Shown one piece after another: positions 20,059-26,579 of a stretch of 64,000 nt of DNA. Origin of the DNA: Gemmata sp. (lineage in GTDB: Bacteria > Planctomycetota > Planctomycetia > Gemmatales > Gemmataceae); contig JANWYJ010000015.1 in the NCBI GenBank assembly GCA_025055115.1, positions 62,001-126,000 of the forward strand, in the 5' to 3' direction. The position numbers were made by a program, and so were the translations under genes. The notes under the pieces are model-generated. The model was not told the origin of the DNA. It saw nothing but the letters and a program-made list of their open reading frames with translations, and ran no database searches. Positions within the stretch are counted from its first letter, which is position 1. Each line of letters begins with the position of its first letter.

Positions 20059-20135
20059 CGGTCCGGATTTTCGGATACACTAAGCCTGAATTGATAGTCC
20101 CTCCAAAATTCCCTCCGGTCCTGACTGTTACCGCC

Positions 20136-22457
20136 ATGGTCTTTGCACGTTTTTTCACAAAGTGTTGGGTGGTCGCTCTGTGTGCAGGCACCCTCAGCCC
20201 AGCCGTGGCTCAGGTCCCCAAGACGATCGATTTCAACCGTGATGTCCGCCCTATCCTGTCGAACAATTGTTTTCAATGCCACGGACCTGATGAGAAAACG
20301 CGCAAGGCGCGATTGCGGCTCGATACCCCCGAAGGCGCGGCCACGGCGATTGTTCCTGGCCAACCCGATGCTAGCGAACTGATCATCCGGATTACAGCCA
20401 GCCCCGACGACGCCAGCCGGATGCCTCCGGCCAAAACGGGTAAAACCCTCGGCCCACGGGACGTCGCGATTCTCCAGCAATGGGTGCAACAGGGCGCAAA
20501 ATATGCCCCGCATTGGGCTTACGTCCCGCCGAAGCCCCCAGTAATACCAACAACCCAGTTCCGCACCGTCAATCCCATCGATGCCTTCCTCTGGGCCCGT
20601 TTGGAACAAGAAGGGTTGAAGCCCCAACCCGAAGCGGATCGTTACACGCTGGCGCGGCGGGTGGCTCTCGATCTGACCGGTCTGCCTCCCACGTTGGAGG
20701 AAGCCGAAGCCTTCGTCACCGACACGGCCGCCGATGCTTACGAAAAATTCGTCGACCGGCAGTTGGCCAAACCGGCCTTTGGAGAACATTGGGCGCGGCT
20801 GTGGCTGGACTTGGCCCGCTATGCCGACAGTGCCGGCTACGCCGACGACCCCCTTCGCACCATCTGGAAGTACCGCGACTATGTCATTGAAAGCTTCAAC
20901 GCCAACAAGCCCTTCGATCAATTCACCATCGAACAGCTCGCCGGCGACCTGCTTCCGCAACCGACCATCGAACAACTGGTCGCCACCGCCTTCCACCGCA
21001 ACACCATGACCAACAGCGAAGGCGGCACCAGCGACGAGGAATTCCGCAACGTCGCCGTTGTGGACCGCGTCAACACAACCTTTACGGTGTGGATGGGAAC
21101 GTCGATCGGTTGTGCCCAATGTCATACGCACAAGTATGACCCGATCACGCAGAAGGAATATTTTGAAGTTTTCGCCTTCTTCAACAACACCGCCGATGCC
21201 GACCGGCCTGATGAAAGCCCCACCCTGCCCTTTTGGAGCTTGCGCGATTTTCTGCGGAAAATGGCCTTGGAACAGCAGATCGCGGCGCTAGAAGCCGAAC
21301 TGAAAGGGAAAAAACCCGAGGAGCTCAAGCCCCAGCGCGACCGTCTGGCCACGCTCAAAAAGGAACTGGCCGCCCTCAAGCCCGCCACCAGCGTGCCGAT
21401 TATGAAGGAGCTGGTCGGTCCGCAACGCCGCAAAACCCGCATCCAGTTCCGCGGCAACTTTCTCGATTTGGGGGACGAGGTCCGTGAAGGGGTGCCCGCG
21501 GTGTTTCATCCTTTCCCCGAGGGTATGCCTAAGAACCGCCTCGGGTTCGCCCGATGGCTCATCAGTCGCGAAAACCCCCTGACGGCGCGTGTCATCGCCA
21601 ACCGGTTCTGGGAGCAAATTTTCGGCACTGGAATTGTCCGCACCAGTGAAGAGTTTGGCATCCAAGGCGAACTGCCCAGCCATCCGGAGTTGCTCGATTG
21701 GCTGGCCCTCGATTTCCAGCGCGACTGGAACGTGAAACGCTTTCTCAAACAACTGGTGATGTCGGCAGCCTACCGGCAATCGGCCGCAGTGACCGCCGCG
21801 CAGTACGAACGTGACCCGGATAATCGGCTGTTGGCCCGCGGCCCTCGGGTGCGTCTGACGGCTGAAATGATCCGCGACCAGGCTCTGTTCGCTGCCGGGT
21901 TGTTAAGCCCCAAAATGCTCGGTCCGTCGGTCCGGCCATTCCAGCCCAGCCTCGGGGTGAGTGCGGCGTTCGGCGGTTCGATCGATTGGAAAATGAGCGA
22001 CGGCGAAGACCGCTATCGCCGGGGCATCTACACCCAATGGCGACGGTCGAACCCCTATCCATCGATGTCGACCTTCGATGCCCCCAATCGCGATACCTGT
22101 GTGGTCCGCCGCAATCGGACCAACACCCCCCTGCAAGCCTTGGTGCTGATGAACGACCCGGTGTACGTCGAAGCTGCCCAAGCACTGGCGCAAAAGGCGC
22201 GCACAAGCACCTCAACACCGGATGAAGCCGTGGTGATGATCTTCCGCCGCTGTTTGATTCGCCCGCCATCGCCAGAAGAACAGAAACGGCTTGTGCAACT
22301 TTTCACCGATGCCCGCGCCGCATTCCAGAAAGCCCCCGCCCAGGCGCAACAGTTCGCAGGAAACCAACCCACCAGCCGCGACCCGGCCACCGATGCTGCC
22401 CTGACTTTGGTGGCCAGCGTCGTCCTGAACCTCGATGAAATGGTGATGAAACGCTGA
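20136..22457 (+). CDS. PSCyt1-DUF1549-DUF1553 (PSD1) cytochrome-like protein
   Basis: 773 residues. The ATG at 20136 opens a signal peptide (MVFARFFTKCWVVALCAGTLSPAVA); the TTG at 20091 is an alternative start without benefit. Domain order: PSCyt1 with heme-type motif CFQCHGPDE (about 50-58) and PPAKTGKTL; DUF1549 (PSCyt2) about 150-360, with RRVALDLTGLPPT, FGEHWARLWLDLARYADS and a second motif CAQCHTHKYDPI; a Lys/Glu-rich linker (390-430); DUF1553 (PSD1) about 490-740, with NPLTARVIANRFWEQIFGTGIVRT, and RTNTPLQALVLMNDPVYVEAA. This is a hallmark planctomycete family, probably an exported c-type cytochrome of unknown substrate. It is paired with the DUF1501 gene directly downstream, as usual. 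Confidence 0.94.
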   Translation: MVFARFFTKCWVVALCAGTLSPAVAQVPKTIDFNRDVRPILSNNCFQCHGPDEKTRKARLRLDTPEGAATAIVPGQPDASELIIRITASPDDASRMPPAKTGKTLGPRDVAILQQWVQQGAKYAPHWAYVPPKPPVIPTTQFRTVNPIDAFLWARLEQEGLKPQPEADRYTLARRVALDLTGLPPTLEEAEAFVTDTAADAYEKFVDRQLAKPAFGEHWARLWLDLARYADSAGYADDPLRTIWKYRDYVIESFNANKPFDQFTIEQLAGDLLPQPTIEQLVATAFHRNTMTNSEGGTSDEEFRNVAVVDRVNTTFTVWMGTSIGCAQCHTHKYDPITQKEYFEVFAFFNNTADADRPDESPTLPFWSLRDFLRKMALEQQIAALEAELKGKKPEELKPQRDRLATLKKELAALKPATSVPIMKELVGPQRRKTRIQFRGNFLDLGDEVREGVPAVFHPFPEGMPKNRLGFARWLISRENPLTARVIANRFWEQIFGTGIVRTSEEFGIQGELPSHPELLDWLALDFQRDWNVKRFLKQLVMSAAYRQSAAVTAAQYERDPDNRLLARGPRVRLTAEMIRDQALFAAGLLSPKMLGPSVRPFQPSLGVSAAFGGSIDWKMSDGEDRYRRGIYTQWRRSNPYPSMSTFDAPNRDTCVVRRNRTNTPLQALVLMNDPVYVEAAQALAQKARTSTSTPDEAVVMIFRRCLIRPPSPEEQKRLVQLFTDARAAFQKAPAQAQQFAGNQPTSRDPATDAALTLVASVVLNLDEMVMKR

Positions 22458-22510: not shown

Positions 22511-23974
22511 ATGTACAATACCATGAAGCGACCGACTTCCGAACGTCTGCTCGAGGCCACACGCCGGACCTTTCTGGGTTCGTCCTCCCTGGGATTGGGG
22601 GCACTGGCGTTGTCGTTGCTGTCGCCCGCGCCGGCCCCAGCCGCCCGTCCGTCGGACAATCCCCTGGCCCCGAAAAAGCCTCCCCGTCGACCGACCGCGA
22701 AACGCGTGATCTACCTGCACATGTCCGGCGCGCCGCCACATTTGGACATTTTTGACTACAAACCCGAACTGCAGAAACGCGACGGCCAGAACTGCCCGGC
22801 CGAATACCTCCAAGGCAAGCGCTTCGCCTTCACCAGCGGCGTGCCCAAACTGCTCGGCACCCGGCAACCCTTCCGACGCTGCGGCCACGCGGGGATTTGG
22901 ATGTCGGATGCGGTCCAACCACTGCATGCCGTGGCTGACGACGTCACCGTCATCCGGTCGATGAAAACGGATGAATTCAACCACGCCCCCGCGGAATTGC
23001 TACTGTTCACCGGCTTTGCCCGACAAGGGCGGCCGAGTTTCGGCGCCTGGACATGCTATGGTCTGGGCAGCGAAAACGACAATCTGCCTGGGTTTGTCGT
23101 CCTGATCTCCAACGGGGTCCAACCCAGCGGTGGGCAAGGCTGCTGGGGCAGTGGCTTTTTGCCCAGTGTGTTCCAAGGGGTCCAGTGCCGCAGCAAAGGC
23201 GAACCAGTGCTGTATCTGTCCGATCCCCCCGGGCTGGACCGCGACCTGCGCCGCTTGGGTCTGGATGCCCTCAAAGACCTCAACGAATGGCAGCATCAAG
23301 AACTCGGCCATCCGGAAACACGCACCCGTATCGCTCAGTATGAACTCGCCTTCCGGATGCAGCTTTCGGCCAACGAAGTGATGGACATTTCCCGAGAGCC
23401 GCAGAAAATCCTCGACGCCTACGGGGCCAAGCCCGGCGCTGGCAGCTTCGCCAACAACTGCCTGCTAGCCCGCCGGCTGATCGAACGTGGCGTTCGCTTC
23501 GTGCAACTGTTCGATTGGGGTTGGGATTTCCACGGTACCAACCCCAAAGAAGACATCCGCGACGGGCTGACCCAGAAAGGCACCATCACCACACAAGCGG
23601 TCGCCGCCCTCATCAAAGACCTCAAAAGCCGCGGCTTATTGCAAGATACCCTCGTCATCTGGGGCGGCGAATTTGGTCGAACCCCCTTCCGCGAAGGCCG
23701 CACCGCCGGTGGCAGCATCCTGGGCCGCGACCACTATCCCGATTGCTTCTCGCTTCTACTCGCCGGCGGCGGCATCAAAGCCGGCTACACGCACGGCGAA
23801 ACCGATGAACTGGGCTTCAAAGTCACCCAAGACGAAGTCCACGTACACGATCTGCAAGCGACACTGTTGCACTGCCTCGGCTTCGACCACACCCAATTGA
23901 CCTTCCGTTTCCAAGGTCGTGACTACCGCCTCACCGACGTTCACGGAAAAGTCGTCTCCGCGATTTTGCAGTAA
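22511..23974 (+). CDS. DUF1501 family protein
   Basis: 487 residues from the ATG at 22511 (22523 is possible). The N-terminus has a twin-arginine-like signal (RRTFLGSSSLGLGALALSLLS). The body follows the DUF1501 pattern, a relative of the alkaline phosphatase/sulfatase fold: VIYLHMSGAPPHLDIFDYKP, FNHAPAELLLFTGF, RFVQLFDWGWDFHG, and near the end VIWGGEFGRTPFREG with GRDHYPDCFSLLLAGGGIKAG, then FKVTQDEVHVHDLQATLLHCLGFD. The biochemical role is not known; it is almost always next to a PSCyt/DUF1553 gene, which argues for one exported complex or pathway. It starts 53 bp after that gene's stop. Confidence 0.93.
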   Translation: MYNTMKRPTSERLLEATRRTFLGSSSLGLGALALSLLSPAPAPAARPSDNPLAPKKPPRRPTAKRVIYLHMSGAPPHLDIFDYKPELQKRDGQNCPAEYLQGKRFAFTSGVPKLLGTRQPFRRCGHAGIWMSDAVQPLHAVADDVTVIRSMKTDEFNHAPAELLLFTGFARQGRPSFGAWTCYGLGSENDNLPGFVVLISNGVQPSGGQGCWGSGFLPSVFQGVQCRSKGEPVLYLSDPPGLDRDLRRLGLDALKDLNEWQHQELGHPETRTRIAQYELAFRMQLSANEVMDISREPQKILDAYGAKPGAGSFANNCLLARRLIERGVRFVQLFDWGWDFHGTNPKEDIRDGLTQKGTITTQAVAALIKDLKSRGLLQDTLVIWGGEFGRTPFREGRTAGGSILGRDHYPDCFSLLLAGGGIKAGYTHGETDELGFKVTQDEVHVHDLQATLLHCLGFDHTQLTFRFQGRDYRLTDVHGKVVSAILQ

Positions 23975-24014: not shown

Positions 24015-24419
24015 ATGTACGAACTGACTAGCCTGTTGCTCATTCACCTGCTCAGTGGACCGGCGCTGACGCCCCAGCTCGTCCCGATTGCCGACGCCAG
24101 TGCCCGAATGCAACCTACCACCACGGACAAGAAAAACGACCCCCGCGACGAACCACGCCAAGGCACCGTCACTGGGATTGTCACCGCCAAAGGCGACACC
24201 TGGATTGAAGTTCTCGCCGACGGCGAAGAGAAACCGCGCCGTTATGTGCCCCACTGGAAAGGCGGCCTGCCCCAAGATGGCGGCGGTTTGGACAAAGCCA
24301 TGCTCGCCGAAATCCAAAAAGTGCCTCTCAAAAGTCGTGTTGAGCTGAAATGGTCGTTTGAAGAACGGCCGCGGGTGGAGGCGATAAAAATTCTCAAAAA
24401 AGGTGATGACAAGAAATAA
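24015..24419 (+). CDS. Small exported hypothetical protein (134 residues)
   Basis: The ATG at 24015 follows GGAGTTTCCTCC. The first 27 residues (MYELTSLLLIHLLSGPALTP...) look like a weak signal peptide. A short beta-rich domain follows: GTVTGIVTAKGDTWIEVLADG, then KPRRYVPHWKGG and VPLKSRVELKWSFEERPRVEAIKIL. This resembles an OB-like fold, with an intervening KMAMLAEIQ-type helix. I do not recognise a named family. It lies between the DUF1501 gene and the thioredoxin/PDZ gene, same strand, and may belong to the same unit. Confidence 0.7.
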   Translation: MYELTSLLLIHLLSGPALTPQLVPIADASARMQPTTTDKKNDPRDEPRQGTVTGIVTAKGDTWIEVLADGEEKPRRYVPHWKGGLPQDGGGLDKAMLAEIQKVPLKSRVELKWSFEERPRVEAIKILKKGDDKK

Positions 24420-24586
24420 CGTCGTCGTCAAATCAATAGGAAGAAAATTCCAAAACGAAAAACTATTCGGTGACGGCTCCCCAGCGGTGGAAAACCCCGC
24501 CGCTACGTCTCTTCGCGCAGCGTGGGCGGATTGTGAAACTGAGGATTGTGAAACGATCGGAACACCACACCCCCCCGGAGGTCCTG

Positions 24587-25798
24587 ATGATGCAGCGGTT
24601 TGTGCTGGTCGGTGTGATGTGGCTCAGTGTTTGCGGTTCAACGGTCGCTCAGTCGCGGCGAACCGATCCGGCCAAGTATGGTTGGTTCACCGATTATGCC
24701 ACCGCCAAGGCGGAAGCCCAACGCACCGGCCAACCGCTGATGGTCGTATTCCGCTGTGAACCTTGAGGCGACTGTGCCACCCTCGACGAGCAGGTTGTTC
24801 GTCTCGATCCCGAAATTGCCGATGTCGCCAAACGCTTCGTCCGTGTCCGGCTTGTGAAAATCGCCGGCATGGACCTCCGCCGCTTTGAATTCGACTACGA
24901 TCTGACGTGGTTCGTCTTCTTCCTCAACGCCGAGGAAACCATTTACGGCCGTTACGGTGGTCGGGACGCGGCCGACGCCGAAGCCCGTCTGTCGCTCAAG
25001 GGCCTGCGCTTCGCTATGGAGCAAGCGTTAGAACGCCACCAAGACCCACCCAAGCCACAAATCCTGACTGGCCAACCCCTTCGGGCAGAAGACTTCCAGG
25101 CCGCCCGGAAACACCGCGGCTGCATCCATTGCCACAATGTCAATGAATTCCGCCGGGCCGACCTGCAAGCCGAAGGGAAGTGGGATCGCCACAGCGTGTG
25201 GGTTTATCCCCTGCCCGAAAACATCGGAATTACGCTGGATGTCGATCAGGGCCGCTTGATCAAGACCGTCAGCCGCGCTTCACCCGCCGACAAAGTGGGG
25301 CTGAAACCCGGCGACCACCTAATCCAGCTCAACGGCTATCCGGTCGCCTCGTTCGCGGATGCCCAGTATGCCTTGCACAAAGCGCCGGCCCAAGGTTCCA
25401 TCCCCATCGAATGGCAGCGCAACGGCCAGAAACACACTGCAACCTTGGTAGTGGCCGAGGGATGGCGGAAAACCAACTTGACCTGGCGACCGTCGATGTT
25501 GGATCTACTCCCCTCCGTGCCTTTCAGCGGCGTCGAACTGACCGCCGCGGAAAAAAAAGCGCTGGGGTTGGCCCCGCAGCGGGCGGCCCTCCGTCAAGAC
25601 CCCGACGTTCACCCCAAGCTGAAAGCCGCTGGTGTCCGCGGCGGGGATATTCTCATCGGCTACGATGGTGTCGCCATCGAGGGCAGCGTCCATCAACTGT
25701 ATGCCTATGTGCGGCGGAATTACCTTGTGGGCGATGAAGTAACGATCAATCTCCTCCGCGACGGCCAACGGCTCGATATCAAATTACTACTCAAATAA
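24587..25798 (+). CDS. Thioredoxin-like/CxxCH/PDZ protein with in-frame TGA (candidate selenoprotein)
   Basis: One frame runs from the ATG pair at 24587/24590 (GGAGG upstream) to 25798, 403 codons, interrupted only by TGA at codon 60 (24764-24766). The 29 codons between TGA and the next possible start (GTG 24854) are open and protein-like. Order: signal peptide (MMQRFVLVGVMWLSVCGSTVA), thioredoxin-like region (YGWFTDYATAKAEAQ, LMVVFRCEP-TGA-GDCATLDEQVV, FVRVRLVKIAGMDL, FVFFLNAEETIYGRYGG), a heme-type motif CIHCH at 179-183, and a PDZ domain (about 225-295: SRASPADKVGLKPGDHLIQL), then a PDZ-like end (GVRGGDILIGYDG). TGA read as selenocysteine gives C57-E-P-U60, a CxxU redox motif. I recall a planctomycete Trx/PDZ (seleno)protein family fitting this. 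If not recoded, it is a pseudogene. Confidence 0.8.
24785..24803 (+). promoter_or_regulatory. SECIS-like hairpin after the in-frame TGA
   Basis: Bases GACGAGC (24785-24791) pair with GTTCGTC (24797-24803), seven pairs including one G-U, closing the 5-base loop AGGTT. The loop's first G is 27 bases past the TGA. As I recall, bacterial SECIS elements put the loop about 16-37 bases after UGA and need a G within its first two bases; the E. coli fdhF loop also begins AGGU. No folding program was run. Confidence 0.6.
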
Positions 25799-25810
25799 TT
25801 TTTGAAGTGA

Positions 25811-26536
25811 TCAATCCACAAAACGCACCTGCGTCAGGCTGATCGCCTGACGCAATCGGCGGAGATATTCCCGGCGGGGAATGTCGATAGCCCCCAGCCG
25901 CCGGGTGTGTTCCGTCGTCATCTGCACATCGAGCAGAACAAAACCGCGTTCGATCAACCGTTGCACCAAGGCCGCCAACGCCACCTTGGAACCATCGGTA
26001 ACGCGGTAGAACATCGACTCGGCAGCAAACAGGCCACCGAGGGCCACCCCGTAGGTACCGCCTGCGAGAATATCCGGCCCGCCATGGGGGTCGGGTAGCC
26101 ACGTTTCGACGCTGTGGGCAAACCCCAGATGATGCAAGCGGGTATAGGCCTCCAGCATCTCGGGTGTCACCCAGGTTCCTTCGGGGCGATTCTCACCGCA
26201 CGAGCGCATCACCGTTGCGAAGCAGCGGTTGAACGTGACGCGGAATTTCCCCGAACGGATGGTTCGTAAAAGTCGTCGCGAAACGTGAAGGCCGCCATAG
26301 CCCGGGGTCGCGTGAGGGTGATCGATCGGATGGGGGTGAAGTTCAATAATTCCGCGTGGATCGGGTGACCACCACAGAATTGGGTCGCCCTCACTGTACC
26401 AGGGGAAGACCCCTTCGGCATAAGCGCGCAGCAAAGTCGCCGGTGATAAATCACCATCGCGGCCCACAAACCCATCGGCGTCCGCTAACTCCGGGGGAAA
26501 CCACGGTACCTCACGCTCCCCCCAATTCCCATGCAC
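25811..26536 (-). CDS. aat: Leucyl/phenylalanyl-tRNA--protein transferase
   Basis: 241 residues from the GTG at 26536, which has AAGGAG 9 bp upstream; a TTG at 26557 would overlap that ribosome site. The Aat pattern is complete: WFPPELADADGFVGRDGDLS, LLRAYAEGVFPWYSEGDPILWWSPDPRGII, VTFNRCFATVMRSC, GTWVTPEMLEAYTRLHHLGFAHSVETW, GGTYGVALGGLFAAESMF, ASK-type segment GSKVALAALVQRL and LDVQMTTEHTRRLGAIDIPRREYL. It transfers Leu/Phe to N-terminal Arg/Lys of proteins, marking them for ClpAP through ClpS (N-degron pathway). It lies convergent to the Trx/PDZ gene, 12 bp between stops. Confidence 0.95.
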   Translation of the reverse strand: MHGNWGEREVPWFPPELADADGFVGRDGDLSPATLLRAYAEGVFPWYSEGDPILWWSPDPRGIIELHPHPIDHPHATPGYGGLHVSRRLLRTIRSGKFRVTFNRCFATVMRSCGENRPEGTWVTPEMLEAYTRLHHLGFAHSVETWLPDPHGGPDILAGGTYGVALGGLFAAESMFYRVTDGSKVALAALVQRLIERGFVLLDVQMTTEHTRRLGAIDIPRREYLRRLRQAISLTQVRFVD

Positions 26537-26579
26537 AATAACTAACTCCTTGATCAAAAGAGATTTACGCTATTTCCCG

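Follow-up and report, generated by a model that had tools for sequence, protein, structure and literature searches.

The window analysed here, the whole stretch of 64,000 nucleotides from a Gemmata sp. contig, carries on its forward strand a gene for a probable selenoprotein, preceded by a small gene of no recognized family and by the PSCyt/DUF1501 gene pair. The selenoprotein gene starts with an ATG at 24587 and ends with a TAA at 25796-25798, and its single in-frame TGA at 24764-24766 is codon 60, located in the motif FRCEPUGDC (U for selenocysteine, Sec). The first-pass annotation had described a frame open on both sides of one TGA at codon 60 in a CxxU motif, and both the coordinates and the motif were confirmed. 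The features of the locus are the following.

20091..22457, + strand: PSCyt1/PSCyt2/PSD1 protein (PF07635, PF07583, PF07587), patchy linkage
22511..23974, + strand: DUF1501 protein (PF07394), patchy linkage
24015..24419, + strand: 134-residue protein, conserved neighbour, no Pfam or NCBIfam match
24577..24581, + strand: GGAGG, probable ribosome-binding site, 5 bases upstream of the ATG, by direct reading
24587..25798, + strand: very probable Trx7/PDZ selenoprotein gene (403 residues if TGA60 encodes Sec); NF041199, 466.7 bits
24587..24655, + strand: probable export signal peptide, about residues 1-23, judged by eye from the translation; pLDDT low over residues 1-24
24683..24931, + strand: Thioredoxin_7 domain, residues 33-115 (Pfam PF13899, 48.8 bits)
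24755..24775, + strand: putative active-site motif CxxUxxC (C57, U60, C63), invariant in 40 aligned members with U taken as C
24764..24766, + strand: UGA codon, predicted selenocysteine; TGA at 53 of 70 loci, this gene included, and a Cys codon at 17 of 70
24785..24803, + strand: SECIS-like hairpin, stem 24785-24791/24797-24803, loop AGGTT at 24792-24796
25121..25135, + strand: CIHCH (CxxCH motif), residues 179-183, in the segment that joins the Trx part to the PDZ part
25223..25447, + strand: first PDZ domain, residues 213-287 (Pfam PF13180; HtrA-type PDZ structural matches)
25505..25795, + strand: second PDZ-type domain, residues 307-403 (DegQ model at 314-402; HtrA PDZ, Z 12.9)

Translated with the TGA as Sec, the product spans profile positions 2-388 of 390 of the NCBIfam family NF041199, "Trx7/PDZ domain-containing (seleno)protein", and scores far over the cut-off of 300. 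Thus the Trx/PDZ (seleno)protein family that had been suggested in the first-pass annotation was borne out. A search of the genome itself with NF041199 found this gene as the sole match over the cut-off (458.4 bits, with one TGA inside the match), and the genome had no match over its cut-off to the (seleno)protein family NF041383. The Thioredoxin_7 domain followed by a PDZ domain and the CxxU active site that characterize NF041199 are all present, and the window gene, which shares both the whole-length match and CxxU, differs from the family in nothing that defines it.

The table of a 2026 review (PMC13188914) lists the Trx7/PDZ family as CxxU with one Sec; the family is credited there to the 2008 ocean-sampling paper, and Haft's selenoprotein papers are cited as well. 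In the selenoprotein entries of that ocean-sampling study (GOS 2008, PMC2398784) a "putative secreted serine protease MucD" is given as a CxxU selenoprotein with 2 Sec and 12 Cys sequences and a predicted SECIS, and the shared PDZ suggests that this entry represents the Trx7/PDZ family. Both CxxU and a predicted SECIS recur in the window gene; the entry was named a protease, whereas matches of the window protein to HtrA protease profiles cover its PDZ part only. As a whole, the protein scored 62.9 bits with the HtrA/DegP/MucD profile TIGR02037 (cut-off 416.2), the best stretch being PDZ only, and a Pfam search at E 0.01 gave no protease family for it. In our literature search nothing was found on PDZ selenoproteins in Planctomycetes or on selenoproteins in Gemmataceae, and for NF041199 the review PMC13188914 stood alone among the matches listed. 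Since the family has already been named by NCBIfam and by the review, the window gene adds one member to a known kind.

The AlphaFold2 model of the protein, built with Cys in place of Sec, has a mean pLDDT of 91.6 and a pTM of 0.87, with low confidence for residues 1-24. Model residues 31-155 align over 114 residues with 3f9u, a DsbD-like exported domain related to cytochrome c biogenesis (Z 13.4, rmsd 2.5), and the Trx part also aligns with AGR2 (9i3u, Z 10.6), which was found by profile comparison as well. In comparison with these DsbD-like and AGR2-type thioredoxins, the window protein adds a third Cys three residues past the Sec, tandem PDZ domains and the CxxCH segment. Residues 212-299 and 307-403 of the model align to HtrA-type PDZ domains, such as those of DegP, DegQ and HtrA, with Z of about 12-13; in contrast to these proteins, the window protein has no matched serine protease domain and is thioredoxin-like in its N-terminal part instead. 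The initial view of the gene as intact holds for the CIHCH motif and the two PDZ-type stretches, which are present, and in part for the signal peptide, which is probable.

The open frame alone is weak evidence for Sec, since ten places in the window, the selenoprotein locus among them, show a single TGA preceded by 50 or more codons from a start and followed by 200 or more. With ten TGA-joined frame pairs of similar size within the window, we dropped the open frame as proof. What settles the Sec reading, as far as sequences can do so, is comparison: TGA at the same place in 52 other loci together with compensatory changes in the hairpin that follows it. The NF041199 search was extended to 298 related genomes, 164 of which had a match over the cut-off, and 70 loci from this and related genomes, the window gene included, were read at the position of codon 60. 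All had either TGA (53) or Cys (17) there, and the alignment of homologues suggested in the first-pass annotation came out in favour of Sec. The motif was CxxUxxC or CxxCxxC in all loci with the single exception of L058, which has UxxUxxA. Over the matched stretch, the 53 TGA frames contain no further stop, except the second TGA in L058, and the residues flanking codon 60 are conserved among 40 aligned members (the invariance alignment comprises 40 of the 70 loci, L058 being left out). A second sample was obtained by scanning named genomes with the family alignment: 449 relatives were found, the best 80 were kept, and 79 were used after L151 was left out. The non-TGA forms in these 79 loci were all Cys (30 of 30), under a scoring that allowed other residues at the second motif place and favoured Cys or TGA.

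One more TGA of the same genome, at L094 on contig C93, was considered as Sec and rejected. It looks like a plain stop between two tandem PDZ-domain genes that happen to be in frame across it, and it can serve as a negative control for Sec calls.

The hairpin GACGAGC / AGGTT / GTTCGTC is separated from the TGA by 18 bases, its first base being the 19th after the TGA. The seven-pair stem originally proposed at this distance stands, and the five-base loop AGGTT proposed with it is one of two readings, since the energy model closes an extra A-U pair and leaves the three-base loop GGU. Folding of the 23-base hairpin piece gave z -3.4 (1 of 200 shuffles as good), and that of a 52-base piece gave z -0.9 (37 of 200), so that the fold taken by itself is modest evidence. 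In E. coli fdhF the SECIS is a hairpin just 3' of the UGA, with a loop that starts AGG and then U and with a bulged U in the upper stem. The window hairpin is similar to it in place and loop start, and the bulged U is not evident in the window.

Alignment of the hairpin in the TGA forms (52 distinct rows from 53 loci, two of which are identical; 364 cells) demonstrated pairing in 97.3% of the stem cells, compared with a shuffled mean of 92.4, and in 18 stem cells both sides had changed; neither value was reached in any of 500 shuffles. The column pair 26-36 is unbroken in 52 rows, being GC in 31, AU in 13, CG in 4 and GU in 4, and couples base 2 of a variable codon (mostly Glu, Gly or Ala) with base 3 of a Val/Ala codon. 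Protein constraint alone hardly explains this pair, since it ties an amino-acid change to a third codon position. When the 3' side was slid by 1-3 columns, pairing fell to 30-60%. Two of the five covariation measures do not rise above the shuffles: the number of pairs altered on both sides was at least equalled in 41 of 500 shuffles, and the number of further pair types in 167 of them. The outer pairs do break, 22-40 in 5 of the 52 rows and 23-39 in 4, and RNAalifold retains the inner five pairs only.

Among the Cys forms, all 17 keep at most 4 of the 7 stem pairs. A covariance model of the hairpin, R1, gave the window site 55.1 bits; the next site in the genome scored 16.8 bits (E 0.5, 150 of 2907 candidates scored), and the next best within the window, with filters off, 10 bits (E 0.43). 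Since R1 was built on the Trx7/PDZ family itself, it says nothing on other selenoproteins. Other loops occur in three of the 49 TGA loci of the named-genome sample (GGGTC in L130, AGTTG in L181 and GGTTC in L190), and in L130 and L181 one or two inner or outer stem pairs are broken. In the divergent TGA form L158 the stem is GATGGGC / GCTCATG, and its third pair, otherwise a constant C-G, is T-A, a further compensatory change.

The machinery for Sec incorporation was proposed as a check on the TGA, and all four components, selA, selB, selC and selD, were found in the same genome. The tRNA-Sec scores 72.9 bits (gathering score 47) and is called tRNA-SeC with anticodon tca (UCA) by ARAGORN; the second genome hit above the tRNA-Sec cut-off is a tRNA-Ser. 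SelB scores 401.7 bits jointly, including its C-terminal part (cut-off 242.25), SelA 563.9 bits and SelD 390.1 bits. A well-supported Sec site also points to selenocysteine use by this organism.

If the TGA were a real stop, the locus would be a decaying pseudogene or contain a sequencing error, and the frame downstream would be silent or separately started. TGA-joined frames are indeed common, as the ten in the window demonstrate, and a GTG at 24854 could serve as a separate start for the part downstream; against these stand the TGA in 52 other loci, the conserved residues on both sides of it and the covariation of the hairpin, which leave this explanation extremely unlikely, and a sequencing error is very unlikely since those 52 loci have TGA there as well. 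Decoding of the UGA as some other residue, for instance Trp, by a changed code or leaky readthrough draws on nothing beyond the open frame and is hardly credible: the relatives without TGA all have Cys (17 of 17 in the first sample and, where the scoring favoured Cys or TGA, 30 of 30 in the second), tRNA-Sec and SelB are present, and TGA appears to end other genes, for example in L094. It is also very improbable that the hairpin just reflects the constraint on codons and protein in the DxQVVR stretch and that SelB is recruited by some other element. The loop does encode Gln-Val, invariant in 52 rows, the 52-base fold is ordinary, and three TGA loci have a different loop; however, the pair 26-36 couples an amino-acid change to a third codon position, and in the Cys relatives L081 (QV) and L082 (EV) 3 of the 7 pairs are gone although the protein sequence is largely preserved.

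Taken together, we favour, with a probability of roughly 0.9, the reading of the window gene as a predicted exported selenoprotein of the Trx7/PDZ family (NF041199) with a general role as thiol-disulfide oxidoreductase. That the product of the UGA60 gene is a selenoprotein is very probable on comparative grounds. In the pathway known from bacteria, Sec-tRNA would reach UGA60 through SelB docked on the hairpin. The protein would work outside the cytoplasm, where C57 and U60 would form a selenenylsulfide that exchanges with substrate disulfides, C63 (Ala in L058) being a possible helper; this oxidoreductase role is probable for the window protein. The two HtrA-type PDZ domains might hold protein clients, and we consider the odds of such client binding to be about even. 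Gene prediction under the standard code cuts such genes short at the TGA, and their true extent is recovered by a well-supported Sec site.

The segment between the Trx and PDZ parts allows another view of the selenoprotein, in which a c-type heme covalently bound at CIHCH would make it a relay of electrons from Sec to heme and not a simple thiol exchanger. CxxCH is present in 70 of 70 members, and C179, C182 and H183 are invariant in 40 of 40 aligned; the protein is probably exported, its gene adjoins a planctomycete cytochrome gene, and MamP, which has PDZ and CxxCH heme sites, is among the structural matches. The CxxCH sites of MamP bind heme; the motif alone does not demonstrate it. No cytochrome profile was significant over the CxxCH segment, the nearest being Paired_CXXCH_1 (E 0.059) and NapB (E 0.081), each in 1 of 40 members, and the best phmmer match over the segment was cytochrome c-554 with E 0.058. 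Moreover, H151, the candidate second ligand, is Trp in L065 and L077. With no significant cytochrome family, a MamP match confined to the PDZ and this ligand replaced in two members, the heme relay seems unlikely to us, and the thiol-disulfide oxidoreductase remains the preferred reading; CxxCH itself may serve to bind heme or a metal, or may form a second thiol pair. A magnetochrome reading of CIHCH is not favoured: folding the segment by itself confined the MamP match to the PDZ (model residues 83-173), the structural matches being mainly to the PDZ, and the match of the MamE profile to the window protein is likewise through the PDZ only.

A selA match (E 1e-60 or better, 172 genomes; the curated cut-off is slightly narrower, with 168) was found in 41 of the 45 genomes that have a TGA form, compared with 29 of the 80 for which Cys forms only are listed (Fisher p 7e-10), in a comparison that covers 125 genomes listed out of the 164 over the cut-off, where the genomes are related and the samples dependent, and where a "Cys only" genome might hold an unlisted TGA copy. 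The four TGA-form genomes in which selA had no match are G018, G034, G056 and G075; two of them are 65% and 59% complete, G034 is 95% and G056 92% complete.

Placing the TGA label on a tree of the 70 members takes two changes. The Cys orthologues L081 and L082 sit within the TGA-bearing group of this unrooted tree, and selA had no match in their genomes G095 and G096 (94% complete); G098 and G099, family-mates of these genomes, have selA together with the TGA form. Since the two orthologues are nested in the TGA group, lack a selA match and have a broken hairpin, we regard them, on the unrooted tree, as candidate cases in which the Sec machinery was lost and Cys took the place of Sec. Together with L034, L037, L038, L054 and L059, the two belong to a small divergent group that mixes Sec with Cys forms; this group of seven loci joins an all-Cys group of 15 in the tree.

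In the named-genome sample (79 of the best 80 relatives among 449 found), the motif was CxxUxxC in 41 loci, CxxCxxC in 30, UxxUxxC in 7 and UxxUxxA in 1. Thus 8 of 79 have two Sec codons: L124 (the contig of L058, judging by length, motif and genome), L134, L142, L149, L152, L166, L171 and L187. Six of their records are titled Planctomycetota, Planctomycetia or Planctomycetaceae, and two Candidatus Poribacteria. In all eight genomes selA is over the cut-off. The family hairpin lies 18 bases past the second UGA of these loci, and the first UGA is nine bases further up, raising the question of whether a single SECIS could serve for both codons. On a quick tree, made with no bootstraps and containing one long row (L158), the UxxU label requires 7 changes, and starred branches force at least 5 of these. 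Of 500 shuffles, 101 needed no more changes, so the label is not clustered beyond chance, in keeping with repeated change.

The UxxU motif is known from other selenoprotein families (PMC13188914). For the Trx7/PDZ family, the table of this review gives CxxU with one Sec only, and UxxU is neither given in that entry nor found in our literature search, in contrast to some of the relatives found here; the UxxU forms of this family may therefore be new to the literature. A bolder proposal, that the family repeatedly makes a UxxU diselenide, with one hairpin serving two UGAs, and in addition carries a covalent heme at CxxCH, is in our opinion quite unlikely in this full form. If true, it would mean a seleno-redox relay to heme, and the series CC, CU, UU, in which the window member would be the CU step, would let the cost and gain of each Sec be compared. 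The series of CxxC, CxxU and UxxU forms, with a hairpin that the TGA forms keep and that has decayed in the Cys forms examined, makes the family a good test bed for the gain and loss of Sec.

The gene neighbourhood is conserved only in part. By tblastn, 18 of the 52 other TGA loci and none of the 17 Cys loci carry a homologue of the 134-residue protein upstream in the same orientation. Six of these 52 (L041, L056, L060, L061, L070 and L073) and none of the 17 have a DUF1501 gene directly upstream. The PSCyt and DUF1501 genes together are upstream on the same strand in 4 of the 52 other TGA loci; all these counts are to be read as lower bounds on presence, since the upstream flanks are unequal (up to 1.5 kb in L022-L051, about 2-5 kb in L052-L077 and up to about 7 kb in L105-L111). 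The pair also occurs in other arrangements, downstream on the opposite strand in the Cys locus L091 and upstream on the opposite strand in L075.

All seven relatives with longer flanks have the small gene, and the PSCyt/DUF1501 pair was found only in G018, of the same genus, about 3.3 kb above the small gene. The pair was not found in the longer flanks of G001, G004, G025, G033, G040 and G057; for G001 and G004, also of the same genus, about 5.9 kb upstream was searched. The small gene is therefore the steadier partner (7 of 7 against 1 of 7), and the link to the cytochrome cluster is loose. The association with this cluster, put forward in the first-pass annotation, keeps some ground in the DUF1501 genes upstream of 6 of the 52 other TGA loci and loses it in the 6 of 7 longer flanks without the pair. 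As a fixed partner, the PSCyt/DUF1501 pair was rejected, since neither 6 of 52 for DUF1501 nor 1 of 7 in longer flanks makes it general. In the Verrucomicrobia, PSCyt genes have been suggested to act in carbohydrate use (PMC5615132).

Two matches to the small protein stand side by side in L107, L109 and L110. On the other side of the selenoprotein gene, a gene for leucyl/phenylalanyl-tRNA-protein transferase (25811-26557, strand -) converges on it. A terminator-like hairpin at 25829-25855 is situated within the 3' end of the transferase gene, and in the interval 24400-25900 four terminator-like sites were found, with 1.9 expected.
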